A stretch of DNA of 25,840 nt from a virus. The notes beneath the pieces were generated by a model. It did not search any database. It saw nothing but the letters and a program-made list of their open reading frames with translations, and was not told the origin of the DNA. The position numbers were made by a program, and so were the translations under genes. This document shows, in pieces, positions 11,668-25,840 of this stretch; the first letter of the stretch is position 1, and each line of letters starts with the position of its first letter. Where the stretch lies: positions 1 through 25,840 of the IMG/VR virus record IMGVR_UViG_3300002835_000971; one strand, given 5' to 3'.

Positions 11668-12057
11668 TTAACAGTTCCACTTTCTCAATGCTTTGTTAAT
11701 ACGGCTATCTGGATCATTTGCAGTTTTTGCTGATGTTAAACGCTTTTTCATACCACCCATACGAGCACAAAATGATTTACGGCGATTGGCTGCCTTCGAA
11801 CCAGGTTTTAACTTTGATGGTTTTGTTGTAACTGCCATTGAAAGTTTTGAACCAGGATTTTCACGGCGATAAGATTCAATGCCTTTACGATTCAAACCGC
11901 CTTCAGGATTTTTACCTTCTTTGCGTTGCCATGCGGCCACTTCATCGATTTGTTCATCTTCTTTTACGCAAGAGCCTGGTGAATATGGTTTTTTACCTTT
12001 TACGGACTTATAACCATCCCAACATCTTTCGGCAATGTATGATTTAAATGATTTCAT
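11668..12057 (-). CDS. Cys-containing basic phage protein with CTS-like N-terminus (DUF6321-like)
   Basis: The 129-aa protein starts MKSFKSYIAERCWDGYKSVK. The first ten residues match the T4 capsid-targeting pattern closely. A Cys/Gly module follows (CWDGYKSVKGKKPYSPGSC, Cys13 to Cys31). The C-terminal part GGLNRKGIESYRRENPGSKL plus FCARMGGMKKRL (about residues 54-105) resembles a small basic module found in phage and giant-virus proteins that I tentatively call DUF6321. High charge and basicity suggest nucleic-acid contact. It could be a head-internal DNA-associated protein. It overlaps nothing but lies one base from the 822-aa gene, whose own C-terminal half carries a related basic Cys motif. 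Confidence 0.78.
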   Translation of the reverse strand: MKSFKSYIAERCWDGYKSVKGKKPYSPGSCVKEDEQIDEVAAWQRKEGKNPEGGLNRKGIESYRRENPGSKLSMAVTTKPSKLKPGSKAANRRKSFCARMGGMKKRLTSAKTANDPDSRINKALRKWNC

Positions 12058-12058
12058 A

Positions 12059-14527
12059 TTATCCTACAAATTTCTTTGCTTTAAATGATTGTAAATTGAT
12101 ACCAACTTTTTTAAGTTCATCTTCTTTTTTATCACCAATACTCATCGTAGTTTCATCACCAGTTAATTCTTCAAGTGGTTTCTTAATAGGTTTGATTCTA
12201 GTAATACCGCCTCTTGTAGAATTTTCTCCTGATGATGCCATTGAAAGACCAGGTTCAATGCCTTTGTCTATACTCTCTTTGCGGACTTCTTTTTGTTTTG
12301 ACCTGATTTTTGCGAGTGTGATTTTGTTGCCTTGGTTTGAACTGCCGGTTTCTTGGGTTGTTGTTGGCGTGGCTTCGATTCCGCCTTTTGCGTATTCTGA
12401 ACCGGTTGTGAGTTCTGCGACACCTTCTGAGATAAGTTTTCCATTCTCTCTTGTGCCACTCTGGTTGAACCGTCTAAAGGATGAGACTGAGATTCCTGTT
12501 TTGGTTTGATTTTCAGATAGTTGATTAGTGCTTTGAACATTTTGATTCTCCTCATTTAATTTAATAACATAGCCATTCTTATAAGGTATGACTGTACCAT
12601 TCATTATGTGTGCTTCTTTTGCTGCTGCACGGCGTAACATAAAAATTCTTACTTTACCATCACTATCTTTGAATAGGTTGGTTTTTTTCTTTTCTTCTGA
12701 CAATTTGCCTTTGCCATAATTTGAAACATTAATTGGTTCACCTTTACGCTCAGGATTTGGATCGTGTTTGCGTTTGGCACGAACCGCAGATGCTCTTTCT
12801 TTTTTAGTAAGAGATTCACGCTTGGCTCTCGACATGCATTTTGGTTTTGGTTCGCCTGGTTCTCTTGCACAAGGACCAATTGCTTCACCTTTACTGTTGA
12901 TTCTTTTCCAATCACCCTCTGGATGTGATTTACTAAACCAATTGCGTAAATCTTCTGAAAAGACTTCTTCAAATTCTTCGTTAACTGTTTTCTTTTTCAT
13001 TGAAGTGCCTGGAACAGGAATATTAGGTTGTTCAGGTTCACCTTTTTGAACTTCAACTAATTTGTCGTGAATAGAACGATGTGTAACTTTGCCATTTTTA
13101 CCATAACGACCAAATCCATAATATTGAAGTCCCATACTTCGTGCTTCTTGTGCAGCACCAGAATCTGGATGTGGTGTCATTTCTGCACCATCTTTTGGAA
13201 TTGGTAATTTATCATTTACATCCATCTCATGTGCAACCCATAGAGATGCGGCTTCAGATTGTGGTGGTTCTGTTACAAACTGTTGAACATTTTTAAACAG
13301 TTGTAACATTTCATCTTTTTTGGCTTTGACTACTTCTGGTGATGCTTGGCGTAAATCTTCAGAGTTATCAAACTCCATGTATTTGTCACCAAACATTTTT
13401 GCAAGTTCTGGTCGTGATGCTTGAACGGCATCCCATTTTTGTTTGCGAATTTCTTCTGGCACGGTACGACCGCCACGGGTACCTCTTTCGATGTTTCTTT
13501 GCTTAGAAACTTCATCGTCAGTATTTACCATAACCATTGAGGTGTCGTAACCAATTTCTTCTAATCGGTCTTTAATGCGACTAATCTTTTCATGGTCATC
13601 ACCAGTACCATTGATGATGAGACCATTACGGCCAAGAAGTGCAAGGCGTTGACGAAGTTCTGTCATACCCTTTGCACGACCACGAACCAAGTCTCTCTTT
13701 TCTTGTTCAGATGAAGGCATTGTTTTATCAAGACCTTCTTTGTCCATTAAGAACTCTAATGCTTTATCTGAATTGATTTCTGTTAAGCCGTGACCTGAAA
13801 GAGTATTGTCGAGGACATAATCTTTTCCCGAACCAGGACCGCCAGCCAGAAAGACCGCTTTGAATATTGATTTATCGTGGACGCCTTCTATTAATAAAGT
13901 TTCAAAATCTTCATCAACAGATTCATTTACACCCATGCCTTTTCTAACATCATTATACATGTCTTTAGCTTGAGCATCAGACATTTTAGATGGCACACCT
14001 TTACGAAACTCTTTAAAGTTTCCTTTTGATGCAAGTTCACGCATTTTACTTGCAGACATTCCTTCCACACCTTCTGCATCGGGGTCTCTATCACCGGCAG
14101 AATGAACTTCAATATTTTTAAAATTAAAAAGTCCATGTGGACCTTTTACTCCATTGTATTTGTTTAATAAAGTTTTGTATTCATCAACACGGTCTTGTCC
14201 GCCAACCATGTGAAAGTGCGTAACACCTGATTTGTATAACTTTGCGGCTTGTGCGAGAAAGTTAGGTGCAGATTTATCGGATGCAGAAACATTTACACCA
14301 GGAAATGCTCTTTTGGCATGCTTAAGTTTCTGTGCTGCGGTAAGGGGATTTTTCTTTGGGTCTTGCGAATGTGATACGACAATGTGCGCCGAACCACCGA
14401 CTTTTTTCGCAAGTTCTTGGACTTTATTGACTAATTTTTCATGGCCGACAGTAATCGGATTCATTCGGCCAAATGCCATTACGGCATGTTTTTCTTTTTG
14501 CTCTCGCAAAAAATCTGCAAATCTCAT
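12059..14527 (-). CDS. Multidomain protein: nucleotidylyltransferase + P-loop kinase + basic modules
   Basis: This 822-aa protein joins several domains. Residues 14-200 form a NadM/cytidylyltransferase-type nucleotidylyltransferase, with TVGH at 26-29 (the (H/T)xGH motif) and SASKMR at 158-163 as the ISSTxxR-like end. Residues 222-420 form a P-loop kinase or zeta-toxin-like domain (Walker A GGPGSGKD, 229-236). Residues 430-500 are a conserved unknown module. Residues 527-600 form a basic Cys module (GPCAREPGEPKPKC). The C-terminal 70 residues end LEELTGDETTMSIGDKKEDE. The start MRFADFLREQ resembles T4 capsid-targeting sequences. LIEG (212-215) falls exactly between the first two domains, and ISEG lies further on; both fit prohead-protease sites. 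A late promoter and GGAGAG precede it. It may be a packaged polyprotein; activities are inferred. Confidence 0.85.
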   Translation of the reverse strand: MRFADFLREQKEKHAVMAFGRMNPITVGHEKLVNKVQELAKKVGGSAHIVVSHSQDPKKNPLTAAQKLKHAKRAFPGVNVSASDKSAPNFLAQAAKLYKSGVTHFHMVGGQDRVDEYKTLLNKYNGVKGPHGLFNFKNIEVHSAGDRDPDAEGVEGMSASKMRELASKGNFKEFRKGVPSKMSDAQAKDMYNDVRKGMGVNESVDEDFETLLIEGVHDKSIFKAVFLAGGPGSGKDYVLDNTLSGHGLTEINSDKALEFLMDKEGLDKTMPSSEQEKRDLVRGRAKGMTELRQRLALLGRNGLIINGTGDDHEKISRIKDRLEEIGYDTSMVMVNTDDEVSKQRNIERGTRGGRTVPEEIRKQKWDAVQASRPELAKMFGDKYMEFDNSEDLRQASPEVVKAKKDEMLQLFKNVQQFVTEPPQSEAASLWVAHEMDVNDKLPIPKDGAEMTPHPDSGAAQEARSMGLQYYGFGRYGKNGKVTHRSIHDKLVEVQKGEPEQPNIPVPGTSMKKKTVNEEFEEVFSEDLRNWFSKSHPEGDWKRINSKGEAIGPCAREPGEPKPKCMSRAKRESLTKKERASAVRAKRKHDPNPERKGEPINVSNYGKGKLSEEKKKTNLFKDSDGKVRIFMLRRAAAKEAHIMNGTVIPYKNGYVIKLNEENQNVQSTNQLSENQTKTGISVSSFRRFNQSGTRENGKLISEGVAELTTGSEYAKGGIEATPTTTQETGSSNQGNKITLAKIRSKQKEVRKESIDKGIEPGLSMASSGENSTRGGITRIKPIKKPLEELTGDETTMSIGDKKEDELKKVGINLQSFKAKKFVG
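12268..12540 (-). CDS. Candidate overprinted gene nested in the 822-codon gene (90 aa)
   Basis: A second reading frame inside the 822-codon gene begins at ATG 12538-12540. GAGGAG lies at 12548-12553, seven bases upstream, which is a near-ideal ribosome binding site. The product starts MFKALINYLKIKPKQE (an amphipathic start), continues SHPLDGSTRVAQERM, and ends in a Lys/Gln/Pro-rich basic tail (QNKKKSAKRV). It looks more protein-like than the host frame here, which is a Ser/Thr/Asn-rich stretch without any recognised module. It ends at 12268, just where the conserved C-terminal module of the big protein resumes. It could be a true overlapping gene or a chance open frame. I rank it as possible, not proven. 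Confidence 0.42.
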   Translation of the reverse strand: MFKALINYLKIKPKQESQSHPLDGSTRVAQERMENLSQKVSQNSQPVQNTQKAESKPRQQQPKKPAVQTKATKSHSQKSGQNKKKSAKRV

Positions 14528-14553: not shown

Positions 14554-14585
14554 TTTAATTATTTAATGATGTATTTATAATTAAA
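14554..14585. repeat. AT-only 9-bp inverted repeat around the late promoter
   Basis: TTTAATTAT at 14554-14562 pairs perfectly with ATAATTAAA at 14577-14585, with a 14-base spacer. The right arm covers the stop codon of the upstream glycosyltransferase gene and overlaps the late promoter. Being all A/T, the hairpin would be weak and has no following U-run, so I do not call it a terminator. It may still separate the sugar operon from the late genes. Confidence 0.4.
14572..14579 (-). promoter_or_regulatory. T4-type late promoter, perfect TATAAATA
   Basis: The minus strand reads TATAAATA, identical to the T4 late promoter octamer recognised by the gp55 sigma factor with gp33 and the gp45 clamp. 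It lies in the only sizeable gap (14528-14580) between the sugar cassette and the late-gene block, leaving about 40 bases to the ATG at 14527 with GGAGAG in the leader. The upstream glycosyltransferase ends at 14581. Position between two functional blocks makes this the most credible promoter in the window. Confidence 0.72.
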
Positions 14586-15540
14586 TGAGACTCAGAATAT
14601 CATCAACTGTGTTTTTTATTAGATGGTTTTGTAATACATGTTTGTAGGCCAATGCGGTAGTGAAATCGTCTGGCTCCCAAGTTTTAAGTATTTCGGTTAA
14701 CTGTTCTTCGGTATCATAGACTGTTCCATACCGAGAAAGCAGTTTTGCACCAGCAATATTCCGTGAAATCCATGGCGTCTTGTTAATCATCGATTCCAGA
14801 ATGACGAGACCAAACCCCTCCTCGCTTGAATTCATAACATAACAGTCCGCATCAACAATAGCGTCTTTAATGTCCTTAGGGTCTTCCACCATTAACGGCA
14901 TAACATTGTCTGAGGCATGTGGCATAATATTAAATCTATTATCATACCCGGTAGTTACAAGAATGGCATCTTTTAGTTCTGCCTTTCGAAACGCTTCTGC
15001 CAATTCAATCATCTTCTTATTTGGCCAATAACCACCACACGATAGAAACATTCGTTTGTCTTTTGGAATATTGTATTTGTCTTTAAAACGACCTGCTGTG
15101 CCAATGCAATCAGTTGGTGAAATGCCATGAATAACTTTATGTGATTTGCCTTGCATCATCCATTTTTTTACATGGTCCCAATCTTCAGGTGCAGAACATC
15201 CAATGAACTTACATTCTCTTAAACCTTTTAAACAAGTAGGACTCTCAGAAGGTTTAATTAACATGTAGAGAATAGGTGAATTAATTTGTTGTGCATGTTC
15301 TAATACAAAGTTTTGCACACCAACATCACCACCATGAACAACGACAAGGTCTTTATCTATTAATTCATTTGGGTCTGATGTAACACGAACACCGTTAAGA
15401 GGTCCTTTGTGTTCACCTGCAACTACTGTAACATCAAGGTGTCTTTGCACACATTCTTCGGCCATTTGTTGAACATAATATTCAGAACCACCTGGATATG
15501 GTGCATATCGGTGAACTACAAAGCAAATTTTCTTATTCAT
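14581..15540 (-). CDS. Glycosyltransferase, GT-B fold (GT4-like)
   Basis: The 319-aa protein should transfer a sugar from an activated nucleotide donor. The N-terminal Rossmann domain starts KKICFVVHRYAPYPGGSEYY, with the Gly-rich GGSE acceptor-side loop near residues 17-20. The C-terminal donor domain contains the EX7E signature at E241 and E249 (EEGFGLVILES), preceded by ADCYVMNSSE. It lacks transmembrane helices and is expected in the cytoplasm or at the inner membrane. It is the last gene of the sugar cassette, overlaps the nucleotidylyltransferase-cupin gene by ATGA, and stops at the late promoter. Donor and acceptor are unknown; a heptose-type donor is inferred from the neighbours. It is shorter than many GT4 enzymes but both motif regions are present. 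Confidence 0.86.
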   Translation of the reverse strand: MNKKICFVVHRYAPYPGGSEYYVQQMAEECVQRHLDVTVVAGEHKGPLNGVRVTSDPNELIDKDLVVVHGGDVGVQNFVLEHAQQINSPILYMLIKPSESPTCLKGLRECKFIGCSAPEDWDHVKKWMMQGKSHKVIHGISPTDCIGTAGRFKDKYNIPKDKRMFLSCGGYWPNKKMIELAEAFRKAELKDAILVTTGYDNRFNIMPHASDNVMPLMVEDPKDIKDAIVDADCYVMNSSEEGFGLVILESMINKTPWISRNIAGAKLLSRYGTVYDTEEQLTEILKTWEPDDFTTALAYKHVLQNHLIKNTVDDILSLI

Positions 15541-16289
15541 TTTCTCTCAATATCTTCTTCAATGCATTTTGAACCCCATTGAATTTCAATAATTTGTAAT
15601 GGTTCTTCAAAAGGATTTGATAGTTTATGCCAAACACCACAAGGAATATTTACATGATGGTCTTTGTATAACTCTTTTCTTACTGATGAACTAGGTCTTT
15701 CTTCATAGACAACACCTTTGCCAGAAACAACATGCCAATATTCATTTCTGTATTGGTGTCTTTGCATGCTTAAAGACAAACCAGGATTTACAGTCAGTTC
15801 TTTAACTTTACAAGTTTCTGTTTCATGTAAAACACGATAGTAACCCCAAGGCCTATTTGTTTTGTTTTCGAAATAATTGTGTAGAATCCATGATGATGAA
15901 TTCATCTTATTTTCACCACCAACACCAAATGCAAAGGTGAGTTTATCATCTTGCACATCTTGTTCGGCAGTATTGCCTGTTCCACGGTCACCACCATTTG
16001 CAAAAATTAACTCTGCATCAGGAAAAGTTTGTCTTGTGAGTTTAATTGCGTTACGAGCAGTATCATCATCGTCATTAAATTCAATTACAAAATCGACCAT
16101 CTTTAAATTCTGAAGGATTTTACATCTTTCGTGCCATGTCATAAATGGTCGACCTTTTTTACGAGATAACCACCCATCAGAATTAAGACCTACGACAAGT
16201 TTATCACCTAGCGACTTTGCGGCATTGAAGTATGCGATGTGACCTGAATGAATAGGATCAAATCCACCTGTTACAATAACAACTTTCAT
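15537..16289 (-). CDS. HldE-C-type nucleotidylyltransferase fused to mannose-6-phosphate-isomerase cupin
   Basis: The 250-aa protein is a two-domain fusion. Residues 1-138 match the cytidylyltransferase-family domain of HldE/RfaE, which activates heptose-1-phosphate: GGFDPIHSGH at 8-17 holds the HxGH motif, FANGGDRGTGN lies near 96-106, and GGENKMNSSSWIL near 124-136 is the C-terminal nucleotide loop. Residues 146-250 match the type II phosphomannose-isomerase cupin found at the end of ManC/AlgA: RPWGYYRVL, QRHQYRNEYWHVVSG with likely metal-binding H178, and IIEIQWGSKCIEEDIERK. In ManC this cupin is fused to a GDP-mannose pyrophosphorylase of a different fold, so this is an unusual pairing. 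It overlaps both neighbours as ATGA. The nucleotide used (ATP, CTP or GTP) cannot be read. Confidence 0.85.
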   Translation of the reverse strand: MKVVIVTGGFDPIHSGHIAYFNAAKSLGDKLVVGLNSDGWLSRKKGRPFMTWHERCKILQNLKMVDFVIEFNDDDDTARNAIKLTRQTFPDAELIFANGGDRGTGNTAEQDVQDDKLTFAFGVGGENKMNSSSWILHNYFENKTNRPWGYYRVLHETETCKVKELTVNPGLSLSMQRHQYRNEYWHVVSGKGVVYEERPSSSVRKELYKDHHVNIPCGVWHKLSNPFEEPLQIIEIQWGSKCIEEDIERK

Positions 16290-16891
16290 AATTTTATTCC
16301 ATTATTTTTACTATTTGTTTCACGAATATGTTGTGCCAAAATATGCATTAAACATTGATGACAATCTTCAATAATTCCATAATTATCTTCTTGCACATGC
16401 AGCACTATGTCAGAGAGTTTTGCGGCTTCACCGCCATCAAACCCAACAAATGCAATTGTGTCCATGTTCAATTCTTTGGCCTTCTTAATTGCATTGACAA
16501 TATTTGGTGAATTACCTGATGCTGAAATTGCAACAAGAATATCACCTGCACTACCTTTCATACTTAGCTGAAAAGAAAAAACATCTTCATAACCAATATC
16601 ATTTGCAATCGCTGTCAATATTGAACCTGATGTAAGTGGTTCAATTTTTGGCCTCAAATGTGCATCATAATGAGTTCCTTTTGCATGGTCGCAATGAAAG
16701 TGGTCACTCATTGTAAGAGAACCACCATTGCCACATACAAATACAGGAAGTCTTTTCTTATATGCTATTTCTAATGTTTCTAAGACCTTTTGCAACTGTT
16801 CTTTATTGACCGATTCTAAACCTGCGTTAACACGGTTCGCATAGTTAGATAGTCGTTGATTTATTTGCGATGTTATTGACATACCATTCAT
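16286..16891 (-). CDS. gmhA: Sedoheptulose-7-phosphate isomerase (GmhA-type SIS protein)
   Basis: GmhA converts sedoheptulose 7-phosphate to D-glycero-D-manno-heptose 7-phosphate, the first committed step to activated heptoses. The SIS fold is evident: VFVCGNGGSLTMSDHFHCDH (phosphosugar loop GNGGS), LTAIANDIGYEDVF, SISASGNSPN-like AISASGNSPNIVNAI, and the C-terminal helix EDCHQCLMHILAQHI with the conserved His. Length (about 200 aa) is normal. The start is uncertain: an in-frame TTG at 16909 and ATGs at 16891 and 16882 are possible. None has a strong ribosome binding site, and all overlap the end of the reductase gene, which suggests coupled translation. Neighbouring HddA-type kinase and nucleotidylyltransferase support the heptose assignment. 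Confidence 0.87.
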   Translation of the reverse strand: MNGMSITSQINQRLSNYANRVNAGLESVNKEQLQKVLETLEIAYKKRLPVFVCGNGGSLTMSDHFHCDHAKGTHYDAHLRPKIEPLTSGSILTAIANDIGYEDVFSFQLSMKGSAGDILVAISASGNSPNIVNAIKKAKELNMDTIAFVGFDGGEAAKLSDIVLHVQEDNYGIIEDCHQCLMHILAQHIRETNSKNNGIKL

Positions 16892-17813
16892 ACGCTTTCT
16901 TAATTCCAATTGACAAATCAGTTTTTGGTGTCCAACCTAACTTAGTAATCTTACTATTATCGGTAAGTTTATTCATTGTTCCATTAGGTTTACTGATATC
17001 ATACACTATTTCACCTTTGTAGTCAAGCGCTTTCATGGCAATTTTTACAAATTCACCAATTTCAATATCTTGGCCTGCACCCACATTTACAAAGTTTTGC
17101 ATAGGTTCTGTTACCGAATCCCACAATTTTTTATCCACATTCATCACATGAATTGCGGCATCTGCCATGTCATCAACATAAACAAATTCACGCCTAGGTT
17201 TACCTGTTCCCCATACAATGAATTGACTTTCATCATTTACTTTAGCACGATGCAATCTTTGAATTACACCTGCGGCTAAGTGACCATTTTGTTCATCGTA
17301 ATTGTCACCAGGTCCATATAGATTGCATGGAAGAATTGAACGATAGTCTGTACCAAATTGACGATTGTAACTCTCACACATTTTGATACCTGCAATCTTC
17401 GCAATTGCATAAGGTTCATTTGTTTCTTCTAATTTACCTGTCATCAAAGCTTCTTCTTTGATTGGATTTTCTGCAAACTTTGGAAGAATACATGTTGAAC
17501 CTAAGAACAATAGTTTTTGAACACCATGTGTATATGCTTGATGAATTACATTATTCTGAATCATAAGATTCTTGTAAATAAAATCACCGGGATAAGTGTT
17601 GTTACCTACAATGCCTCCAACTTTTGCCGCTGCGACATAAACTTGGTCGATTTTATTCTTTGTAAAAAATTCTGTAACTGCCACTTGATTAGTTAAATCT
17701 AATTCGTTATGTGTTCTTGTAATAATATTATTTGAGTTAACACCAGAATCAATCAGTCTGCGAACTATTGCAGAACCAATTAACCCTCGATGACCCGCCA
17801 CATAAATTTTCAT
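16845..17813 (-). CDS. GDP-L-fucose-synthase-like epimerase/reductase (WcaG family)
   Basis: This NADPH-dependent short-chain dehydrogenase/reductase (322 aa) normally converts GDP-4-keto-6-deoxymannose to GDP-L-fucose. Here the neighbours suggest a heptose analogue, as with the WcaG-type reductases that finish GDP-6-deoxyheptose synthesis in Campylobacter and Yersinia. Motifs are intact: nucleotide loop GHRGLIG (7-13), catalytic S106-T107-C108 (GSTCILPK), Y135 and K139 (YAIAK), the NLYGPGDNYD loop, and H178. I chose the ATG at 17811-17813 because GAGGAAG lies just upstream and the protein then starts exactly at the Rossmann strand; upstream in-frame codons lie inside the kinase gene. It follows the kinase stop by one base. 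Substrate is inferred. Confidence 0.9.
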   Translation of the reverse strand: MKIYVAGHRGLIGSAIVRRLIDSGVNSNNIITRTHNELDLTNQVAVTEFFTKNKIDQVYVAAAKVGGIVGNNTYPGDFIYKNLMIQNNVIHQAYTHGVQKLLFLGSTCILPKFAENPIKEEALMTGKLEETNEPYAIAKIAGIKMCESYNRQFGTDYRSILPCNLYGPGDNYDEQNGHLAAGVIQRLHRAKVNDESQFIVWGTGKPRREFVYVDDMADAAIHVMNVDKKLWDSVTEPMQNFVNVGAGQDIEIGEFVKIAMKALDYKGEIVYDISKPNGTMNKLTDNSKITKLGWTPKTDLSIGIKKAYEWYVNNIANKSTTI

Positions 17814-17814
17814 A

Positions 17815-18813
17815 TTATTCTTCCTCATCTTGATAGTCGTGGTAAATGACTTGACTTCCCAAATATTCAAAATCAACAGGCACTTCTCTGAGATTTAATT
17901 CTTTTCTTACTTTTTCATGTTTTTCTGGTGGTGTCAAAAATAAAATGAAACCACCACCGCCTGCACCAAGTAGTTTACCACCTATTGCACCGGCTTTAAT
18001 TCCTTTTTCATAGATGTAATCTATTTCAGTATTTGATATAGATTTTTCCATATTTTTTTTAATCAACCATTGTTCATTCAATAGTTTTGCAAAATCTTCA
18101 ATGTTATCAGAAAACAAATGTTTTTCTGCCTCTACGACCAAATCTTGCATGTCTTTTAAATCTACTTTTTTTTCTTTAATGTTTGTGATTTTTTTGTCTG
18201 CAATATCGTGAGCATTTCTCAATTGTTCTGTGAAAAATAATTGAACCCACGATTCAAGTTTTTTAAGTGTGTTCTTTTTAATTACTAAAGGTGAACAAAC
18301 AAAGTCTGCTTCGCCGCCAATAACAAAATCAATTTTATTCAGACCACCAAATGCAGCTGCAACTTGGTCTTGAGAACCAACTGCTTCACCTAAAATAGAT
18401 TGTTCAAGGTAAATTGCATCTCTTGCTAATTGTCTTTTGGTGATATTTTCATGTTTTAAAACTGCCAAACCGTGCAATAAAGAAACAGTAAAACTAGAAC
18501 TTGATCCAATGCCTGTTCGATTAGGTAAATCACCATGATGTGTAATGTCCACACCTTTTTGATAATTCATGTATTTGATTGCTTCACGAATAACTGGAAT
18601 ATTAATCTCATCGACTTTTTGTGCTTCTTGCTTTTCATAATAACGAACACGATAATTGTAATCAAAAATATTTGGCAATTTTCTGAGAACAAGAAACGAA
18701 TACTTATTGATGGTTGTAGAAATTACAGAACCTCCATGCTCTTTATACCATGCAGGATAATCTGTACCACCACCAAAAAATGAAATGCGGAAAGGTGTTC
18801 TAATAATAATCAT
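17815..18813 (-). CDS. hddA: D-glycero-D-manno-heptose 7-phosphate kinase-like GHMP kinase (HddA type)
   Basis: HddA phosphorylates heptose 7-phosphate at C1 to give the alpha-1,7-bisphosphate on the GDP-heptose route. The 332-aa protein has the expected GHMP features. The N-terminal IIRTPFRISFFGGGTDYPAW (about residues 3-22) is typical of HddA-like kinases. The ATP-binding loop is GIGSSSS at 101-107 (preceded by DLPNRT), and LLGAGGGGFILF near residues 284-295 is the third motif. Neighbouring GmhA and a nucleotidylyltransferase support the heptose role over fucokinase or other GHMP enzymes. It overlaps the dehydratase gene as ATGA. A GmhB phosphatase, needed to remove the 7-phosphate, is not seen in the window and may come from the host. 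Confidence 0.87.
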   Translation of the reverse strand: MIIIRTPFRISFFGGGTDYPAWYKEHGGSVISTTINKYSFLVLRKLPNIFDYNYRVRYYEKQEAQKVDEINIPVIREAIKYMNYQKGVDITHHGDLPNRTGIGSSSSFTVSLLHGLAVLKHENITKRQLARDAIYLEQSILGEAVGSQDQVAAAFGGLNKIDFVIGGEADFVCSPLVIKKNTLKKLESWVQLFFTEQLRNAHDIADKKITNIKEKKVDLKDMQDLVVEAEKHLFSDNIEDFAKLLNEQWLIKKNMEKSISNTEIDYIYEKGIKAGAIGGKLLGAGGGGFILFLTPPEKHEKVRKELNLREVPVDFEYLGSQVIYHDYQDEEE

Positions 18814-19826
18814 CTAATTACAAACTTTCCACTTGCTTCGGCAACTCTATCACGCCAATAGTTTAACAAATCTTCCATTGTTTGTTGATATGGAATCTCT
18901 GGTTTCCAACCTGTATGCAAACGAAACTTCTCTGTATTGGGTACTTGCAAGTCTGCATCGATTGGCCGTAATCTAGCCGGATCAACTTCAATTCTGATTT
19001 TCTCTTTTATTGGTGACATAGACAATAGTGTGTTTAATACATCTGAAATTTCACAGGTGAAAGTACCACCAATGTTATAGTATGCACCTGGTACAGGATT
19101 ATGTGTCAACAACAAATAGTATGCTCTAACGGCATCTCTTACATCTGCAATTGTTCTGAGTGATTTGAGATTGCCAACTTTGATAACTGGTTCAATGTAG
19201 CCTGCCTCTGCCATTGCAATTTGTTTTGCAAATGTGGATTCCGCAAATACATCACCACGGCGAGGACCTGTATGAGTAAACATACGAGTAGTTTGCACAT
19301 TCATATTATATGCTTCTGCATAGAAACGACCAACAAGGTCTGTTCCTACTTTTGAAATAGCATATGGTGATGCAGGATGAAAACTACATTCTTCATCGAT
19401 TGGAAGTTTATCTTGTGGTACACGACCAAAAACTTCTGATGAAGCACATACATGAATGTGTGCATCAGGTGCCCACTTCTTACAAGCATCAAGTAATCTT
19501 ACTGTGCCCTGAACATTAACATTTAGTGTTTCAAGTGGCGAATCAAAACTCGTTTTAGGAAAACTTTGGGCCGCCAAATGGAAAACATAATCAGGCCTGT
19601 TGTCTTTGATTGCCGTGTCAATCGATATTCCATCATTTAAATCTCCATAAACTAATTTAACCCGATTCATGTTGTTGATATTTTCAATCAGGTTGCTAAT
19701 ATTATGTAGTGGACTTCTCCAACGAATAAGACCAACGATATCCCAATCTGTATTTTCAATTAAAAAGTCCGCAAGGTGCGAACCAACCATGCCTGTAATG
19801 CCTGTAATAAACGCAACTTTTTTCAT
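18810..19826 (-). CDS. GDP-mannose/GDP-heptose 4,6-dehydratase-like SDR
   Basis: The 338-aa short-chain dehydrogenase/reductase should dehydrate a nucleotide sugar to its 4-keto-6-deoxy form using bound NADP. The loop GITGMVG lies at residues 9-15, HLAAQSF at 83-89, the catalytic S/T-x-E as S129-S130-E131 (CASSEVFG), and Y155 with K159 (SPYAISK). The C-terminal LRPIDADLQVPNTEKFRLHT then GWKPEIP matches the GMD/RMD group. GMD makes GDP-4-keto-6-deoxymannose; a related enzyme, DmhA, acts on GDP-manno-heptose. Because GmhA- and HddA-type genes follow in the same operon, I favour a heptose substrate, but mannose is possible, especially with the PMI-like cupin nearby. It overlaps both neighbours by ATGA. 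Confidence 0.88.
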   Translation of the reverse strand: MKKVAFITGITGMVGSHLADFLIENTDWDIVGLIRWRSPLHNISNLIENINNMNRVKLVYGDLNDGISIDTAIKDNRPDYVFHLAAQSFPKTSFDSPLETLNVNVQGTVRLLDACKKWAPDAHIHVCASSEVFGRVPQDKLPIDEECSFHPASPYAISKVGTDLVGRFYAEAYNMNVQTTRMFTHTGPRRGDVFAESTFAKQIAMAEAGYIEPVIKVGNLKSLRTIADVRDAVRAYYLLLTHNPVPGAYYNIGGTFTCEISDVLNTLLSMSPIKEKIRIEVDPARLRPIDADLQVPNTEKFRLHTGWKPEIPYQQTMEDLLNYWRDRVAEASGKFVIR

Positions 19827-20842
19827 AATGATTCCGAAATGTGAATAATGTCTTTCAAACGATTAACAAAAGTATGATACTCTTTAACCTTTTTCATTTG
19901 ATTTAAAATTCTATCTTTTGTTTTTGGATCTTCTTGCATTTCTCTTGCTATGTGAAACAATTCTGCGGTGTCACTTGAATATGCCGCATCACCATCAAAA
20001 AATTCATACGCAGCTTTAGAATTTGTAATAGGTAACTGACCATAACTCACATTCTTCAACAATCGGTCAGGAACATAATTATTAGCTAAATGATTCTTTG
20101 GTCTAATATCTAAAGGGATAAATGATTCTAAAACCCACTTCTTCAACTGTTGATGTGTAACAGGTGTTTGATGTGAATTGTTATATGCAAATTGTATATT
20201 GTTTTTTTCACACTCTTGGATAAAAGGCATAAAAAGAGATTCATTTCCATCATCTGCATTTCCCCATCCTTTCGAAATTGTTCCACTAAAGAACGCATAC
20301 TTCGGTTCGTTAAAGGGTGTTAATCTATCTTCAAAATTAATTTCATCAGGAGTTAAATCGGAAGCCCATAGTGTGTAAAGAATATCATAGTCTTTTCCTT
20401 TTTCGAATGAGGCAAAACTATTTGGCAGTTGTTCACATTTTTCTTTTTCGAATTTGTATGCCCATGCTTTATCGGGGACGCCATCGACACCCCAATTACA
20501 TGCAAAACGAAACTCAGTTAAACGACCAACTCTATCAATATAATGACTTGCACCAGGATTCATTTCATTATCTGGTGATGCAGGTTTGTTGCCAACATAA
20601 TTGACAAAATAATGTGATGACTTTCTTAATGGTAGATTATTACTCAATCCATTTCTTGTTACTAACCATTGTTCTGAAATGATAATTGAATCATCAAAGA
20701 ACTCAGGTTCTACATTGTCTCTATTGTCTAACCAATAAACAGGTCGTTTTAGATATTCAGCGGCTCGATAAAAACCAAGATGTGCAAACCCATGCGTGTG
20801 ACCTGAATCTAATTTTGCACCCCAAATAATAATCTTTTTCAT
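19823..20842 (-). CDS. Putative glycosyltransferase, GT-B-like, divergent
   Basis: I recognise no exact family for this 339-aa protein. It begins with a short Rossmann-like strand (KKIIIWGAKLDSGHTHGF). Its C-terminal third (PDRLLKNVSYGQLPITNSKA, then AAYEFFDGDA and DTAELFHIAREM) looks like the donor-binding half of GT-B enzymes, where a conserved run leads to a G-x-(L/I)-P-(I/V)-T-N-S type loop. Acidic and aromatic-rich central segments have no clear motif. It overlaps the dehydratase and methyltransferase-like genes by 4 bases each, so it is made with the sugar enzymes. A sugar transfer role is inferred from the C-terminal pattern and context. It could also be a modifying enzyme of unknown type. 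Confidence 0.66.
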   Translation of the reverse strand: MKKIIIWGAKLDSGHTHGFAHLGFYRAAEYLKRPVYWLDNRDNVEPEFFDDSIIISEQWLVTRNGLSNNLPLRKSSHYFVNYVGNKPASPDNEMNPGASHYIDRVGRLTEFRFACNWGVDGVPDKAWAYKFEKEKCEQLPNSFASFEKGKDYDILYTLWASDLTPDEINFEDRLTPFNEPKYAFFSGTISKGWGNADDGNESLFMPFIQECEKNNIQFAYNNSHQTPVTHQQLKKWVLESFIPLDIRPKNHLANNYVPDRLLKNVSYGQLPITNSKAAYEFFDGDAAYSSDTAELFHIAREMQEDPKTKDRILNQMKKVKEYHTFVNRLKDIIHISESL

Positions 20843-21399
20843 TCAATATATGCCAAGAAAATGTCATCATCAGGAAATTGGCGACCAAAACTAAAACCAC
20901 CATCTAAATTGGTGAACTTATAATTAGGATTGATTTTTAATACTGCATCAATATAATCACTTTTCTTTAGAAAGTCCCAACCTTGTGTATCAAACAATCT
21001 ATGGTCATCGGCAAAGATAAGATGATTTTTAATTTTTGATTTTCCAATTTCAGTAACTTCATAAACAAGCGGACATGCGCCATACTTTTCACTACCAGGC
21101 ACTTCTAATTTGCCACTACGATGAGCATCTAACCAAAATGTTGCTTGATGTTTAAGATTTGGAATAATTTCATCTCTGAGAATATCTGGCGAATCGCCTT
21201 TCCAAATTTTAACTTGTGGATAATTTTTGAATCTTTCTTTAGACATTTCATAATACTTGTCTAACAATTCAATACTGTGTATTTCTTCAAATCCAAAATC
21301 AATTGCAGTTTGAACTGTATCTCCTTCATAAGTTCCACTTTCAACAAATACTTTCTTTTCTGAATACTTGTTCAAGTAATCCATTTTTAACTGAGGCAT
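20839..21399 (-). CDS. Class I SAM-dependent methyltransferase-like protein
   Basis: The 186-aa protein opens with a Rossmann motif I-like VFVESGTYEGDTV (about residues 17-29), followed by IHSIELLDKYYEMSKERF, where the acidic residue after the second strand would hold the SAM ribose. Later come IWKGDSPDIL and TFWLDAHRSG, consistent with motifs III-IV. It is short and lacks the extra domain that would identify the target. In a sugar operon it could methylate a heptose or another glycan hydroxyl, or act on nucleic acid; nothing here decides. AGGAAT precedes the ATG. It follows the second methyltransferase by three bases and overlaps the divergent glycosyltransferase. Confidence 0.74.
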   Translation of the reverse strand: MPQLKMDYLNKYSEKKVFVESGTYEGDTVQTAIDFGFEEIHSIELLDKYYEMSKERFKNYPQVKIWKGDSPDILRDEIIPNLKHQATFWLDAHRSGKLEVPGSEKYGACPLVYEVTEIGKSKIKNHLIFADDHRLFDTQGWDFLKKSDYIDAVLKINPNYKFTNLDGGFSFGRQFPDDDIFLAYIE

Positions 21400-21402
21400 A
21401 AT

Positions 21403-22056
21403 TTATTCCTTTATCAGGTACCACATTTTCTCACCTGTTTTAATATCAGGTTTATTTTCAGAAAAGAAATCATTTAGGCCATTACTAATAGTTGTTAAAG
21501 TAATGTCATCACCAGAAACAATTCCACCTTTTTTTACTTTAGGAAAATAACTACTCAAATCTTTAGTAAATCCATCATATGAGTGGTCGCCATCAATAAA
21601 AATAAAATCTAAAGATTCATCTTCAATAGAGTTGGCAAAAGTTGAACTATCTTCATAGATAAATTCAATTTTTTCTTTGAATGGTTTGAGAACATCGATT
21701 GCATATTGTTTCATTAATTTTTGGCGTTCTTCATTAAAATCTGCACCATTCCAATCTATGTAAGTTGGATAACTATCAATTGCATAATACTTTTTAATAC
21801 TTGGTACATTTTTCATAAAGAGTTCTGTTGATGCGGCCAGACAAACGCCGATTTCAGCACCAACGATTTCTTTGTCACCAAAATGTTCGACAAAAAGTTT
21901 TTCTAAACCAAGACCAGATGCGTCTGAATTATTTCTCCAATCAATTTGTTTTTGAACCCATTCTGTTGCAGGCAAATGATGAAATGGGTCTTGACTAACC
22001 ACTTTTTCACCTCTAATCATGTTTTGTGTTGTGTCTATAATAAATTCATCACTCAT
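21403..22056 (-). CDS. Class I SAM-dependent methyltransferase (Methyltransf_24-like)
   Basis: The 217-aa protein has a clear small-methyltransferase pattern. EIVGAEIGVCLAASTELF (about residues 57-75) is motif I, followed by KKYYAIDSYPTYIDW. SLDFIFIDGDHSYDGFTKDL is the signature of the Methyltransf_24/TylF-like group, where the IDGDH acidic pair can bind metal. PKVKKGGIVSGDD is the next strand. Such enzymes often O-methylate sugars or small molecules. No transmembrane segment or targeting sequence is seen. Its ATG overlaps the stop of the preceding 56-aa gene. Sugar methylation is inferred from the operon; the sequence supports the fold and likely metal-dependent O-methyl transfer but not the acceptor. 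Confidence 0.82.
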   Translation of the reverse strand: MSDEFIIDTTQNMIRGEKVVSQDPFHHLPATEWVQKQIDWRNNSDASGLGLEKLFVEHFGDKEIVGAEIGVCLAASTELFMKNVPSIKKYYAIDSYPTYIDWNGADFNEERQKLMKQYAIDVLKPFKEKIEFIYEDSSTFANSIEDESLDFIFIDGDHSYDGFTKDLSSYFPKVKKGGIVSGDDITLTTISNGLNDFFSENKPDIKTGEKMWYLIKE

Positions 22057-22223
22057 TTTTTGTCCTTGATTTTGTTCAGTATATCCATTGCATCAGGATA
22101 TTCTCTCATCCATGAAACCAACTCATCATTCTTTATCACATCTTCTAATGAATTCTTTGGCTGTGTGTTTACTACAACATTAAACTTTGCCAATTTATTC
22201 CAATCAATTTGATATTCACTCAT
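22053..22223 (-). CDS. Small protein in sugar operon, unknown function (56 aa)
   Basis: The 56-aa product starts MSEYQIDWNKLAKFNVVVN and continues with a mostly helical, acidic-basic mixed sequence (SLEDVIKNDELVSWMREYPD), ending NKIKDKK. I recognise no family. It is probably genuine because it fills the space between two genes exactly: the ATG at 22221-22223 lies inside the last codons of the glycosyltransferase gene and its stop overlaps the next ATG as ATGA. An in-frame upstream codon would add four residues but has no better ribosome binding site. Partner or regulator of the adjacent methyltransferase is possible but speculative. Confidence 0.66.
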   Translation of the reverse strand: MSEYQIDWNKLAKFNVVVNTQPKNSLEDVIKNDELVSWMREYPDAMDILNKIKDKK

Positions 22224-23070
22224 ATTTTTTCTCAATTATCCCTTTCCATTCTGGCACACGGTCATATTGATGTACCATTACAAAAGGTGTGCCATCACTT
22301 GTGCATACTGTATTATCTACTAAAATTGGAGTTTTTTCAACCAGCTTGTCAGCATATTTACCTACAATATGTGGACCTGTTGTACCTAGTTGTGCCGCCC
22401 ATCCTTCTTCAGAGGCAGTAAATCTTGTAATGTCTCTATAAGGTTTCATGTTCAAAAGAATATTGACTGCGGCTTGGTCAGGACCACCTCCACCCTCTGT
22501 AAAATGAGAAGTGCCATTACACATCATATAAACATTTAAAAAGAAATCGAGCATCGTATCAAACTTGCCTGATACTGTGCCTGCATTGTAAATGAGATTG
22601 TTTTGGTTGTGGTCGTGAACTAAAGGACCAAATGCTTTGAAAAGATTGTGATTACCCCAATCTTCATCTTTGTACCGAATCGATTCACATGCAACATTAA
22701 TCTGTGCATCATTCATGTTCTTTTCTAACCACTCTGATGGATTAGTTTGAAAGATAACATCTTTCACATCGGTAGAAACAATGTATCGGTATTGTCCTTG
22801 AAACTTTTTAAAGAAATACCATAGATGTAAGAACCTCTCCACAACAATAGAGAAGTTTTCTTTGTATTCGAATTTTTTTAGATTGTCGTTCTTACCGAAC
22901 GCTAAAACTGTATATTGTCTTTTGACAAGTTCTTCCACAGTTTCATAATCTACATTATAACAAATCATGGCCTTTACGCCATCAAAACCACAACGGTCTA
23001 AAGAATTGACCCAAGGTTTAATTTTATCAAATGTGTACCCGGTGATACACCCAACCACAATGTCTTTCAT
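22216..23070 (-). CDS. Putative GT-A-type glycosyltransferase
   Basis: From the ATG at 23068-23070 the product has 284 aa. GGAG lies seven bases upstream, so I prefer this start to an in-frame TTG four codons earlier. Residues about 85-120 (HLWYFFKKFQGQYRYIVS, then TDVKDVIFQTNPSEWL) contain a DxxD-type motif, matching the metal/nucleotide-sugar site of GT-A enzymes in the form D-x-x-D-V-(I/L)-F-Q found in viral and plant transferases. Further on, NLIYNAGTVSGKFDTML and GGGGPDQAAVNILLN resemble the acceptor/donor loops of that group (Asn-Ala-Gly, Asp-Gln). It is the first gene of the sugar cassette. Substrate is unknown; context suggests a nucleotide-heptose or other LPS sugar donor. Confidence 0.78.
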   Translation of the reverse strand: MKDIVVGCITGYTFDKIKPWVNSLDRCGFDGVKAMICYNVDYETVEELVKRQYTVLAFGKNDNLKKFEYKENFSIVVERFLHLWYFFKKFQGQYRYIVSTDVKDVIFQTNPSEWLEKNMNDAQINVACESIRYKDEDWGNHNLFKAFGPLVHDHNQNNLIYNAGTVSGKFDTMLDFFLNVYMMCNGTSHFTEGGGGPDQAAVNILLNMKPYRDITRFTASEEGWAAQLGTTGPHIVGKYADKLVEKTPILVDNTVCTSDGTPFVMVHQYDRVPEWKGIIEKKYE

Positions 23071-23090
23071 AATAAACTCCAATGATATAT

Positions 23091-23984
23091 TTACTTAGTC
23101 TTTACATAATCAGTAAATGATTTAATTTTTTGTCCTGGTGTGTCTTTTTGATATTTCTTCCGAAGTTCATTCGTACCATCTTCACCTGCACCATATTCTT
23201 CATGCACACTTTTATGTAGTTTCACGCCAGTAACATCTTGAACTAACTGCCATGCAGCTTTGTTTTCTTTCTTACGGATAAACTCTTTGAGTTTATCTTT
23301 TTGTTGTGCATTTGCCTTTTCAAAAAACTTAAACATTTCCATCGCACCAATATTACCTGCGTATGCGGCTTCGTGAATATGTTTTTTTGTTTTACCTTCA
23401 TGCGTAACATGGTGTGCATGAAATTTGATTTTTGGATATTCTTTTTGCAATTTTAAAAAATGATTTAGATTTGTTTTACTATCATCATACATGTGAACAT
23501 GATGATAATTTCCTGAATTCAAGTGTTTTCTTAAAACTACATTTTTCTTTTCTGCTGGCGGTTGATTACCAGGTATATTGCCGGCACGATGAATGTGTGT
23601 ATCATTTACATCGATACCATGTTTCTTAAACTTATTTAAAAAGGTGTGTTTGTCATCAAAATCTGCACGAGCAGTATTCATAATGATTTTACTATTGTGT
23701 CCTTTTTCTTTAATATTCTTATGAATTGCATTTAACTTATTAATCATCGGATGAATTGGTTCGGATTCATCGTGAAACTTTTTCGCACTTTTGAATTCTT
23801 TGAAGTCATACGAATGACCAGGTTTTAATTTGTGGTCATTAAACTCTTGGTTACTCAATTTAGAGACAGTTTTACCCGAAGGGTCTTTCACATGAATCTT
23901 TGCACTTGTTTTAAACAAAGTTTCATCAATATCAAATACATGCAGGCCTGTGCCTTCTGTAATGTATTTTTTATAGTTTTTCAA
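23091..23984 (-). CDS. HAD-superfamily phosphatase-like protein with CTS-like N-terminus (TTG start)
   Basis: The 297-aa protein starts at TTG 23982-23984 (AGAGGA just upstream), giving MKNYKKYITEG. This fits both the T4 capsid-targeting pattern and the gp21 cleavage rule I-x-E before G. HAD motif I follows directly as HVFDIDETLF (D18, D20); motif II is in KIIMNTARAD; motif III/IV is in HMYDDSKTN. So it should be a phosphatase-type hydrolase of unknown substrate. A basic His-rich region and a C-terminal helical module (AGNIGAMEMFKFFEKANAQQ), starting after IHEA, another possible protease site, complete it. It does not look like GmhB. It may be a packaged enzyme acting on host nucleotides or on nucleic-acid ends; this is inference. 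Confidence 0.84.
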   Translation of the reverse strand: MKNYKKYITEGTGLHVFDIDETLFKTSAKIHVKDPSGKTVSKLSNQEFNDHKLKPGHSYDFKEFKSAKKFHDESEPIHPMINKLNAIHKNIKEKGHNSKIIMNTARADFDDKHTFLNKFKKHGIDVNDTHIHRAGNIPGNQPPAEKKNVVLRKHLNSGNYHHVHMYDDSKTNLNHFLKLQKEYPKIKFHAHHVTHEGKTKKHIHEAAYAGNIGAMEMFKFFEKANAQQKDKLKEFIRKKENKAAWQLVQDVTGVKLHKSVHEEYGAGEDGTNELRKKYQKDTPGQKIKSFTDYVKTK

Positions 23985-23985
23985 T

Positions 23986-24258
23986 TTATCCTCTTGTCAA
24001 AGCTAGAATCTTTTGTATTTGTGATTCAACAAGTGCCTTGCGATTTGGCCAATAGATATATTCTTTATCAGCAGTTTTTAATAGTTTGGTGAAAAAAGGA
24101 AGAACTAATTTTTCAACTTGGTCTAATTTTGCTTTGTATTCTTCTGCGGTGTCAGCAGTTTCAGATATAACTCTATTGTATTCTTCTTCAGATACGGCAG
24201 AAAATCCAAAATCATCTTCACCATATTCTGCCAAAATTTTACTTAAATCATATGCCAT
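23986..24258 (-). CDS. Small conserved phage protein, unknown function
   Basis: The 90-aa product starts MAYDLSKILAEYGEDDFGFS and then AVSEEEYNRVI, a sequence type I have seen in marine T4-like phages without a known role. The rest is helical and charged (AEEYKAKLDQVEKLVLPF...). I chose the ATG at 24256-24258 because GGAG lies six bases upstream; a second ATG three bases earlier is also possible. The start overlaps the stop of the 408-aa gene, and the stop lies one base before the HAD gene, so it is translated with both. No membrane helix or enzymatic motif is visible. Confidence 0.78.
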   Translation of the reverse strand: MAYDLSKILAEYGEDDFGFSAVSEEEYNRVISETADTAEEYKAKLDQVEKLVLPFFTKLLKTADKEYIYWPNRKALVESQIQKILALTRG

Positions 24259-25484
24259 CATTTGCTCCAATTTTTTGCGGCGTTGAAATTGGCTTGACTG
24301 AATTCTAATCTATCGACCAATTTAACTGCATTGCCTTTTAATTTATCTACTGCCACAAAACCTTCTGGTGCAGTAATTCTATAACCTGTATCTGTTCTCA
24401 CAAATGTTCCAATTGAACGAATTGATTCTAATTTACGAACAATCATTAATTTTGCATCAACCAATAAGTTCTGTAAATCAAAAATGAATCTTAATTGTGC
24501 GGCATTTGTTCTAAAGAAACGCATAATCTCAGTTTTTTCTTTTGTTCTTTTTGCTTTTGTTTCGGCTTTCTTCACATCAGCAATGTCTTTATTTAATTTT
24601 GCTTCTACCCAACGAATCAATTCAAGTGTATGTGATTGAGTATTTGTTATCTTTTTACCCTCACGAACCTTTGTATTGTTGAATGTCTTGATATAAGTTA
24701 AGATAGATTCACTTGATGAAATGCGATTCAAAACTAATGAATTGATTGATTGAAAAGTTCTACCTGCTAAAGATAGAAGATATGTTATGTCTTTTGTTTC
24801 TTGTTCGGTGAAAGTTGCAGAACCAGAAGCATCTGTAAACGATGCATCTCTGAACCAAATATCTTTTGTTGGTGTTAAACGACCAATGTCAATGTTAAAA
24901 GATGCTTTCATATCTTCCATTGTTCGACCTGTATAAGAGGTATGAAATACAACACCAATTTGTGCAGCTAACATTGTCTGCGATAATTTGGAATCTGTTG
25001 GTACTGCATATACAATCGTATTTGGTTGAAATGTAATATAAGATTCGCCCTCAATAGTTTCTTTCTTAATGTCACCTTTGGTGAACATCATGTCACCTTG
25101 AAGAATACCTTTAATGCCGAGTTTTGGAAGATATCGTAATGCAACTTTAAGTTTTTCATTTAAACCACCACTTGGATGATTTGTATCGATATCATCTTCT
25201 GTGTAGTTTAACTTAGCATTTTTATTGAACACCGATTTTGTGCCAACAAAAAACTTACCATTTTCAGGATTGGTTCCGCAAAAGATTGCAGGTGCACCAT
25301 CCCATTTTGTTGTGACATTAACTTTTGATTGTGCATGACCCGCAAGCATATCTCTTAATGATTGTAAGAAATTGATTGCATCTCTCGCACCCACAACACC
25401 ACGATTGAGAACTTCATCCTCAATATGTTCAAGGTGAACATTTTTGCCTTCTTTGGCTTCTGTTAAGTATTCTGTGAATTTCAT
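24258..25484 (-). CDS. Putative covalent nucleotidyltransferase/ligase-like protein with CTS-like N-terminus
   Basis: The 408-aa protein starts MKFTEYLTEAKEG; YLTE followed by A fits the T4 gp21 cleavage rule exactly. At residues 58-70, TTKWDGAPAIFCG contains K60-W-D-G, the KxDG motif I of DNA/RNA ligases and capping enzymes, where the lysine forms a covalent nucleotidyl adduct. GKFFVGTKS (76-84) could be the following strand, GILQGDMMF (126-134) resembles motif III (DGE-like), and TFQPNTIVYAVP (151-162) motif IIIa. Motifs IV and V are not clear. The C-terminal half is helical, rich in Lys and Leu. The ligase link is my inference from one clear and several weak motifs. I know similar hypothetical proteins in marine T4-like phages. 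Confidence 0.8.
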   Translation of the reverse strand: MKFTEYLTEAKEGKNVHLEHIEDEVLNRGVVGARDAINFLQSLRDMLAGHAQSKVNVTTKWDGAPAIFCGTNPENGKFFVGTKSVFNKNAKLNYTEDDIDTNHPSGGLNEKLKVALRYLPKLGIKGILQGDMMFTKGDIKKETIEGESYITFQPNTIVYAVPTDSKLSQTMLAAQIGVVFHTSYTGRTMEDMKASFNIDIGRLTPTKDIWFRDASFTDASGSATFTEQETKDITYLLSLAGRTFQSINSLVLNRISSSESILTYIKTFNNTKVREGKKITNTQSHTLELIRWVEAKLNKDIADVKKAETKAKRTKEKTEIMRFFRTNAAQLRFIFDLQNLLVDAKLMIVRKLESIRSIGTFVRTDTGYRITAPEGFVAVDKLKGNAVKLVDRLEFSQANFNAAKNWSK

Positions 25485-25840
25485 TAGTATATCTTTACGA
25501 AAGGTCCGTTTGTATCTCTAAATTCTTTTTTAGCACCATAATAAAGAGTTTTTAACCATTCATCCATTAAGTTTTTTTTCTCAATTAATGCCCATGCATA
25601 TGCCCATCTTAAACAAGTCAATTTAGAAGAAAGACGACCTGCAGCATATCTTGTAGATTTTTCTTCTCTTATACAATAGTCCAAAACATTTTCAAAACTA
25701 TTTTTTGATACCGTTTTATTTTTATATTTAACTTCTAAAAGACCAAAGTCAATAGGTTTGCCATTAACTTTAAACTTACTTAATTCTTTTTGAAAATCTA
25801 ACCAATACTTGCGTGTTTCCTTTGACCACTTACCTACTTC
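25484..25840 (-). CDS. Unknown phage protein, N-terminus outside the window
   Basis: The frame is open from the right edge to the stop at 25484-25486, giving at least 118 residues. The visible part reads EVGKWSKETRKYWLDFQKEL at its start, then a charged middle (NGKPIDFGLLEVKYKNKTVS), a Trp-rich helix (CLRWAYAWALIEKKNL) and the C-terminus FRDTNGPFVKIY. A TTG inside is not a likely start because the frame continues upstream with normal-looking protein. I do not recognise the family. It overlaps the ligase-like gene by one base, so the two are likely co-expressed. Confidence 0.75.
   Translation of the reverse strand, partial: EVGKWSKETRKYWLDFQKELSKFKVNGKPIDFGLLEVKYKNKTVSKNSFENVLDYCIREEKSTRYAAGRLSSKLTCLRWAYAWALIEKKNLMDEWLKTLYYGAKKEFRDTNGPFVKIY

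Follow-up and report, generated by a model that had tools for sequence, protein, structure and literature searches.

DUF6267, a core protein family of T4-like cyanophages, is a candidate divergent polynucleotide ligase that carries a capsid-targeting-like leader in one clade

We analyzed a virus record of 25,840 nucleotides from IMG/VR (IMGVR_UViG_3300002835_000971, positions 1 to 25,840), a 25.8 kb fragment that is referred to in full length as the window. Near one end, on the minus strand, lies an open reading frame (ORF) that a preliminary description, based on the letters alone, had called a ligase-like KxDG protein with predicted packaging in the capsid. The ORF is present, and its product belongs to the Pfam family of unknown function DUF6267 (PF19782; E-value 8.5e-121, 404 bits against a cut-off of 27), passing the curated cut-off and covering 376 of 376 profile positions. 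It also matched phrog_455 with an E-value of 5e-119. The gene, its upstream neighbor and the features within it are as follows.

24258-25484, minus strand: DUF6267 ORF, ligase-like, 408 amino acids with an ATG start (PF19782, phrog_455; AlphaFold model available)
25484-25684, minus strand: C-terminal portion of the upstream gene, truncated where the window stops (phrog_1462, E-value 5e-11), overlapping the DUF6267 start
25458-25484, minus strand: leader MKFTEYLTE with a predicted gp21-type cut before A10, matching T4 IPII/IPIII; predicted local distance difference test score (pLDDT) below 50 at residues 1-17
25296-25307, minus strand: motif I, K60-W-D62-G63, with the predicted nucleotidylated lysine; K, D and G invariant
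25236-25238, minus strand: K83 in FFVGTKSVFNK, invariant, tentatively assigned to motif Ia
25092-25100, minus strand: motif III, Q129-G-D131, on strand 127-135; Q and D invariant (E in S-T4)
25008-25022, minus strand: N155-TIV-Y159, tentatively assigned to motif IIIa, with strand 158-162; invariant in the alignment of 52 representatives
24420-24806, minus strand: helical insert separating motifs III and IV, residues 227-355 (DSSP on models, and alignments)
24354-24365, minus strand: motif IV, E374-G-F-V377, with strand 376-380; E, G and V invariant
24309-24323, minus strand: motif V, K388-L-V-D-R392 (VKLVDR), with strand 385-389; K and R invariant

The window protein contains TTKWDGAPAIFCG (K60 and D62), GILQGDMMF and TFQPNTIVYAVP, as the preliminary description had stated; the C-terminal EGFV (motif IV) and VKLVDR (motif V) had been overlooked. 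Using homologues gathered from IMG/VR and GTDB contigs, we found K60, D62, G63, K83, Q129, D131, N155, E374, G375, V377, K388 and R392 to be invariant in 315 of 315 aligned sequences. Both residues whose variation had been named as refuting the prediction, K60 and D62, are therefore constant, with the qualification that the homologue script pre-selected KxDG or KxEG sequences, which biases the count for K60; KxDG was also present in all 11 readable loci that failed this pre-filter. An alignment of 52 representatives, in which the identity of the others to the window protein was 29-78%, had 35 invariant columns. The conservation of the motif residues is far beyond chance.

KxDG, QGD, EGxV and K follow one another as motifs I, III, IV and V do in covalent nucleotidyltransferases, and the spacing between motifs I and III is 69-71 residues in DUF6267, compared with 64 in T4 Rnl2 and 58 in gp30. 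Two further invariant blocks, HLxHxED and HTxY, are specific to the family. We considered a reading of HLxHxED as domain Ia of NAD+-dependent ligases, which stays speculative because this block and the catalytic lysine are only about 25 residues apart in compact members. The helical insert is mostly missing from these compact cyanophage members.

We modeled the window protein with AlphaFold (pLDDT 82, predicted TM-score 0.75) together with a compact, 295-residue protein of the cyanophage type (pLDDT 88, predicted TM-score 0.83). When the PDB was searched by Foldseek with the compact model, the nine best entries were all DNA ligases (LIG4, LIG1 and archaeal enzymes) or the human capping enzyme, each a weak match by itself (E-values 0.1-1), with the DNA ligases placed above the capping enzymes. 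By hand count, this superfamily accounted for 27 of the 50 top entries (E-values 0.12-7, TM-scores 0.13-0.30). The chance of nine superfamily members in nine top ranks is near 1e-23 if 1000 of the 350,542 chains belong to the superfamily, a figure that treats entries as independent when they are not. The full-length model showed the same tendency more weakly, with ligases among its best weak matches, and the RNA ligases 1xdn, 6vtd and 5d1o were among the weak matches of the DUF6267 models. Given motifs that lie on the expected strands and Foldseek ranks dominated by one superfamily, the core probably adopts a highly divergent covalent nucleotidyltransferase fold, as judged from these models. 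The structural comparison proposed in the preliminary description thus recovered a resemblance to the nucleotidyltransferase core, one that is weak by E-value.

Several other matches were set aside. Those of the full-length model to the vaccinia capping enzyme were given no weight, with a root-mean-square deviation of about 21; matches to CorA, BAR domains and similar structures involved helical regions at TM-scores of about 0.1. An NCBIfam fumarate reductase match (E-value 0.001) lies within the insert of helices and was put down to chance.

The leader can be aligned with a known capsid-targeting sequence (CTS), MKFTEYLTE|A in the window protein against MKTYQEFIAE|A in T4 IPII/IPIII, so that the CTS-like start noted earlier is real. 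Translation of the leader is to be expected, since the ATG overlaps the upstream stop codon (TAATG) and is the only one before the invariant HLEHxED block. The leader is retained in 64 of 68 homologues of the window clade, which show more than 30 variants of it, each with F, an aromatic residue or H, L or I, and E; the invariant F and E are encoded by more than one codon, indicating that amino acids and not codons are conserved. Residues 1-17 are disordered in the model, and cleavage after LTE would make the start of the protein similar to that of orthologues without a leader. No leader was found in the three cyanophage groups of DUF6267, whose members begin MPNKHLEH or MKNTHLQH. On the tree, the history of the leader needs about four changes, one of them the loss in a subclade made up of L066, L069, L076 and L079, whose proteins start MATK. 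In L066 and L079, the in-frame upstream stretches IEYLFLRES and IEHLFLKDS resemble a decayed leader. CTS-type N-terminal motifs occur in 5 of the 35 window proteins, against 0.05-0.1 expected, and the genome annotations of the related phages Melnitz and S-CREM2 include a prohead protease.

To relate the motif to virion content, we turned to S-CREM2 (Kyanoviridae), for which a virion proteome of 52 proteins has been published (PMC10665884). In a scan of its genome (L391-L394), the motif starts four annotated genes, namely gp6 (S-adenosylmethionine hydrolase), gp13, the kinase gp14 and the cytidylyltransferase gp154, and the virion list includes every one of them (P = 0.003; 0.0004 when only non-structural proteins are considered). 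The remaining two hits were an antisense frame and an internal start. The authors of the proteome regarded packaging and co-purification as indistinguishable (PMC10665884); the motif favors packaging for these proteins. In the literature searched, a single paper refers to capsid targeting as well as to cyanophages. A similar stretch, LRFASFMAEA, lies near residue 17 of gp12 of S-CREM2, which is annotated as Cas9. The cytidylyltransferase GC190 of S-SM1 begins MKKFSAFLNEAE, and its gene overlaps the end of the DUF6267 gene; T4-GC190 is among the proteins identified in S-SM1 virions (PMC3037559), and an NMNAT/cytidylyltransferase-like protein has been found repeatedly in cyanophage virions (PMC3037559, PMC10665884, PMC9602691).

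The family as a whole is widespread among T4-like cyanophages. A tblastn search with the window protein identified 471 phage records, nearly all of them T4-like cyanophages and relatives (Kyanoviridae), and the nearest isolate was Methylophilales phage Melnitz-3 with 50% identity. Counted by organism name and not record by record, DUF6267 was found in about 462 records (Synechococcus 371, Cyanophage 61, Prochlorococcus 24, Methylophilales 4 and Pelagibacter 2), and UvsX, used as a yardstick, in about 465 (374, 61, 24, 4 and 2, respectively). DUF6267 is a near-universal core gene family of Kyanoviridae. The papers searched contained no mention of it. In the S-PM2 record AJ630128 (L389:3989-5768), DUF6267 is broken, with the frame lost after about 190 amino acids. 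A 591-residue S-PM2 protein in the fold library is a full-length match to the family, and the break in AJ630128 reflects a sequencing error or a strain difference.

Recognized ligases were searched for in the same phages. The families PF01068, PF09414, PF01653 and PF09511 had no match in Melnitz and five cyanophages, whereas T4 has three, and neither PF01068 nor PF09414 gave anything over the cut-off in 14 further phage records. A match to PF09414 or PF09511, expected of RNA ligases of the T4 Rnl1/Rnl2 type, was thus not found in the DUF6267-bearing genomes searched. A 2010 review reported that gp30 ligase homologues were not found in cyanomyoviruses, allowing for unrecognized distant homologues (PMC2984593). 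The S-CREM2 protein gp190, labeled "DNA ligase" (L393:44929-45432), belongs to DUF6433 (E-value 1e-30), has 167 amino acids and lacks KxDG; the label is probably a misannotation. Ligase is an enzyme type that T4-like cyanophages were thought to lack, and DUF6267 looks like a very distant one.

Taken together, these observations are compatible with DUF6267 being a divergent covalent nucleotidyltransferase without an OB domain, probably a polynucleotide ligase, that is packaged and injected in the window clade; we regard this combined reading as roughly an even call. Of its parts, packaging of the window-clade proteins, as predicted from their leaders, is likely, and end-joining chemistry is slightly more likely than not. 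DNA nicks seem somewhat more likely than RNA as the substrate, a lean that follows from the lack of every recognized ligase family in the phage records searched. In such a mechanism, K60 would be nucleotidylated, with motifs III, IV and V binding the nucleotide and metals, and the enzyme would join polynucleotide ends, acting in the cytoplasm in the case of cyanophages. In the window clade, an added T4-type CTS would direct the protein into the prohead, where a gp21-type protease could cut after LTE and leave a mature N-terminus like those of the leaderless cyanophage proteins. The enzyme might then enter the cell with the genome and act on incoming DNA or early RNA before phage gene expression.

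Several results weigh against this proposal. The gap between motifs IV and V is only 12-14 residues, compared with about 21 in T4 ligases, and motif V has a single lysine. Just 17-20 residues or so, forming one main helix, follow motif V in the models, so that an OB domain is absent and has no room; for this reason DUF6267 is not filed as a DNA ligase. No solved structure was matched at an E-value below 0.1, and TM-scores to ligases stayed within 0.13-0.30. The search against ligase profiles proposed in the preliminary description found no link: hhalign comparisons with the T4 Rnl2 and gp30 families were negative, no Pfam ligase model matched any of the 52 members, and a PDB profile search gave no ligase hit. 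A host ligase could also substitute for a phage enzyme, which the review judged more probable (PMC2984593). Regarding packaging, the leaderless S-CREM2 DUF6267 (gp87) is not in the virion list, and loss of the leader in the MATK subclade means that packaging is not essential to the family. No leader-bearing DUF6267, the window protein included, has been seen in a virion, and no proteome of such a phage was found. Of the functions suggested earlier, a DNA or RNA ligase or end-modifying enzyme therefore keeps the support of motifs and fold resemblance but not of profile comparison or domain content, with the ligase activity and its substrate put forward here as predictions; capsid packaging of the window protein is likewise a prediction, well supported by the leader and the S-CREM2 proteome.

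The genes around DUF6267 bear on what it might do. Four further CTS-type starts occur in the window:

23091-23984, minus strand: HAD-type phosphatase, candidate co-packaged partner, with the CTS-like start MKNYKKYITE|G (phrog_415 polynucleotide kinase, E-value 3e-9)
12059-14527, minus strand: NMNAT/cytidylyltransferase-like protein with a P-loop kinase, CTS-like start MRFADFLRE|Q (phrog_3041, E-value 2e-67; phrog_395; Zeta_toxin, 6e-10; AAA_33)
11668-12057, minus strand: further CTS-like start, MKSFKSYIAE
8167-8541, minus strand: further CTS-like start, MRFKKYLDE

By their N-termini, these genes suggest a set of packaged proteins. The leader of the HAD phosphatase is retained with variation in relatives, for example as MLSFRQYLFEE. 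The nucleotidyltransferase-kinase, whose cyanophage relative T4-GC190 occurs in virions, also has a weak match to the polynucleotide kinase family phrog_505 and weak NMNAT profile matches; the assignments of both partners rest on moderate profile matches. In cyanophages, DUF6267 is often beside uvsX, gp41, mazG and the cytidylyltransferase gene. Cytidyltransferase entries of the fold library match DUF6267 and the phrog_455 profile is a joint one, which indicates fusions of the two proteins in some phages. With an NMNAT-like neighbor, NAD+ is an attractive candidate cofactor of DUF6267.

Under one alternative, DUF6267 is an RNA-repair ligase delivered early, which mends tRNA cut by host anticodon nucleases. 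The HAD phosphatase and P-loop kinase would be its partners, in the way that Pnkp and Rnl1 cooperate in T4. A polynucleotide kinase (PNK)-type HAD protein two genes away, a P-loop kinase in the same window, CTS-like starts on both, and the RNA ligases among the weak structural matches would all fit. However, the HAD gene does not adjoin most leaderless homologues, cyanophage DUF6267 sits by replication genes and the cytidylyltransferase, the best structural matches are DNA ligases, and the kinase may be nucleotide- or zeta-like and not a PNK. We consider this explanation possible but unlikely.

The absence of an OB or any other known ligase domain, together with the family-specific HLxHxED and HTxY blocks, would also suit a covalent nucleotidyltransferase that joins nothing and transfers a nucleotide onto a host or phage protein, a 5' end or a small molecule, perhaps using NMNAT-derived NAD. 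Capping enzymes are among the weak fold matches, and the adjacent, in some phages apparently fused, NMNAT/cytidylyltransferase-like virion protein could supply such a reaction. Since DNA ligases outrank capping enzymes with the compact model and the lack of any other ligase in the phages points to ligase function, we hold this to be rather improbable.

It is also doubtful that DUF6267 works only inside the infected cell, for example on Okazaki fragments, with a leader that is a chance resemblance or serves another role. The leaderless cyanophage orthologues, the absence of gp87 from the S-CREM2 proteome and the many orthologues adjoining uvsX, gp41 and mazG would fit such a role, whereas the constancy of the key leader residues across the clade, the sharing of the motif by unrelated neighbors and its success in predicting virion proteins in S-CREM2 argue otherwise. 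That DUF6267 is not a nucleotidyltransferase at all, and that KxDG, EGxV and the fold likeness are coincidental, would accord with the E-values above 0.1 and the negative profile comparisons but is quite improbable when none of the motif residues varies, their order and strands are those expected, and the top nine structures come from one superfamily.

A more far-reaching version of the proposed ligase role, which we regard as a long shot, would have DUF6267 fill the place of the ligase that T4-like cyanophages lack, as a new family of covalent nucleotidyltransferases without an OB domain, possibly fueled by NAD+ that the adjacent or fused NMNAT-like virion enzyme supplies. The window clade would package this ligase in the virion and inject it along with the phosphatase and the nucleotidyltransferase-kinase, the three forming an end-repair kit.

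Compared with known systems, the window protein resembles the cyanophage members of the family (DUF6267, PF19782, phrog_455, T4-GC 71) over its full length, with all invariant residues in common; those members are mostly shorter and leaderless, whereas the window clade adds the leader and the long helical insert. The closest solved folds are those of covalent nucleotidyltransferases (ATP- and NAD-dependent DNA ligases, RNA ligases and capping enzymes), which have the same order of motifs I, III, IV and V and similar strands, but DUF6267 has no profile link to them and no OB domain, and has in addition the III-IV helical insert, HLxHxED and HTxY. T4 Rnl1 and Rnl2 carry a C-terminal helical domain, while the helices of DUF6267 are internal. 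The leader is like the 9-10 residue I/L-x-E|A motif of T4 IPI, IPII, IPIII and Alt, which are CTS-directed, cleaved by gp21 and injected. A disordered leader before a folded protein and a prohead protease annotated in related phages are further likenesses. The T4 cargo, however, consists of small inhibitors or an ADP-ribosyltransferase, while the window cargo is a predicted nucleotidyltransferase whose packaging is predicted from its sequence. Cyanophage T4-GC190 (S-SM1) and gp154 (S-CREM2) share the CTS-like start, are seen in virions, and adjoin or are fused with DUF6267, but they are non-covalent nucleotidyltransferases of the HxGH type with an unrelated fold.

T4-like cyanophages are among the most abundant viruses of the ocean, and DUF6267 offers a concrete, assayable candidate for an unrecognized ligase in them. 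The capsid-targeting motif may also serve as a simple predictor of enzymes injected by these viruses; three of the four proteins that it picks in S-CREM2 are enzymes whose presence in the virion the authors could not tell from co-purification.

Between the DUF6267 locus and the nucleotidyltransferase-kinase, the minus strand of the window at 14581-23082 holds what we take to be a sugar-gene island, presumably encoding glycosyltransferases, an HldE-like adenylyltransferase-cupin fusion, a GmhA-like isomerase, a heptose-kinase-like protein, and proteins resembling GDP-mannose dehydratase and an epimerase. Such a content suggests a pathway to a nucleotide-heptose or a deoxyhexose. In relatives, a phrog_22045-like gene upstream of DUF6267 also has a CTS-like start (MQGFKTFLSEA at L082:12203-13288 and MKPFKQFISED at L014:2816-3886), and in the Melnitz copy of this gene, the stretch DILIG...SLKIG possibly represents the core of a PD-(D/E)XK nuclease.
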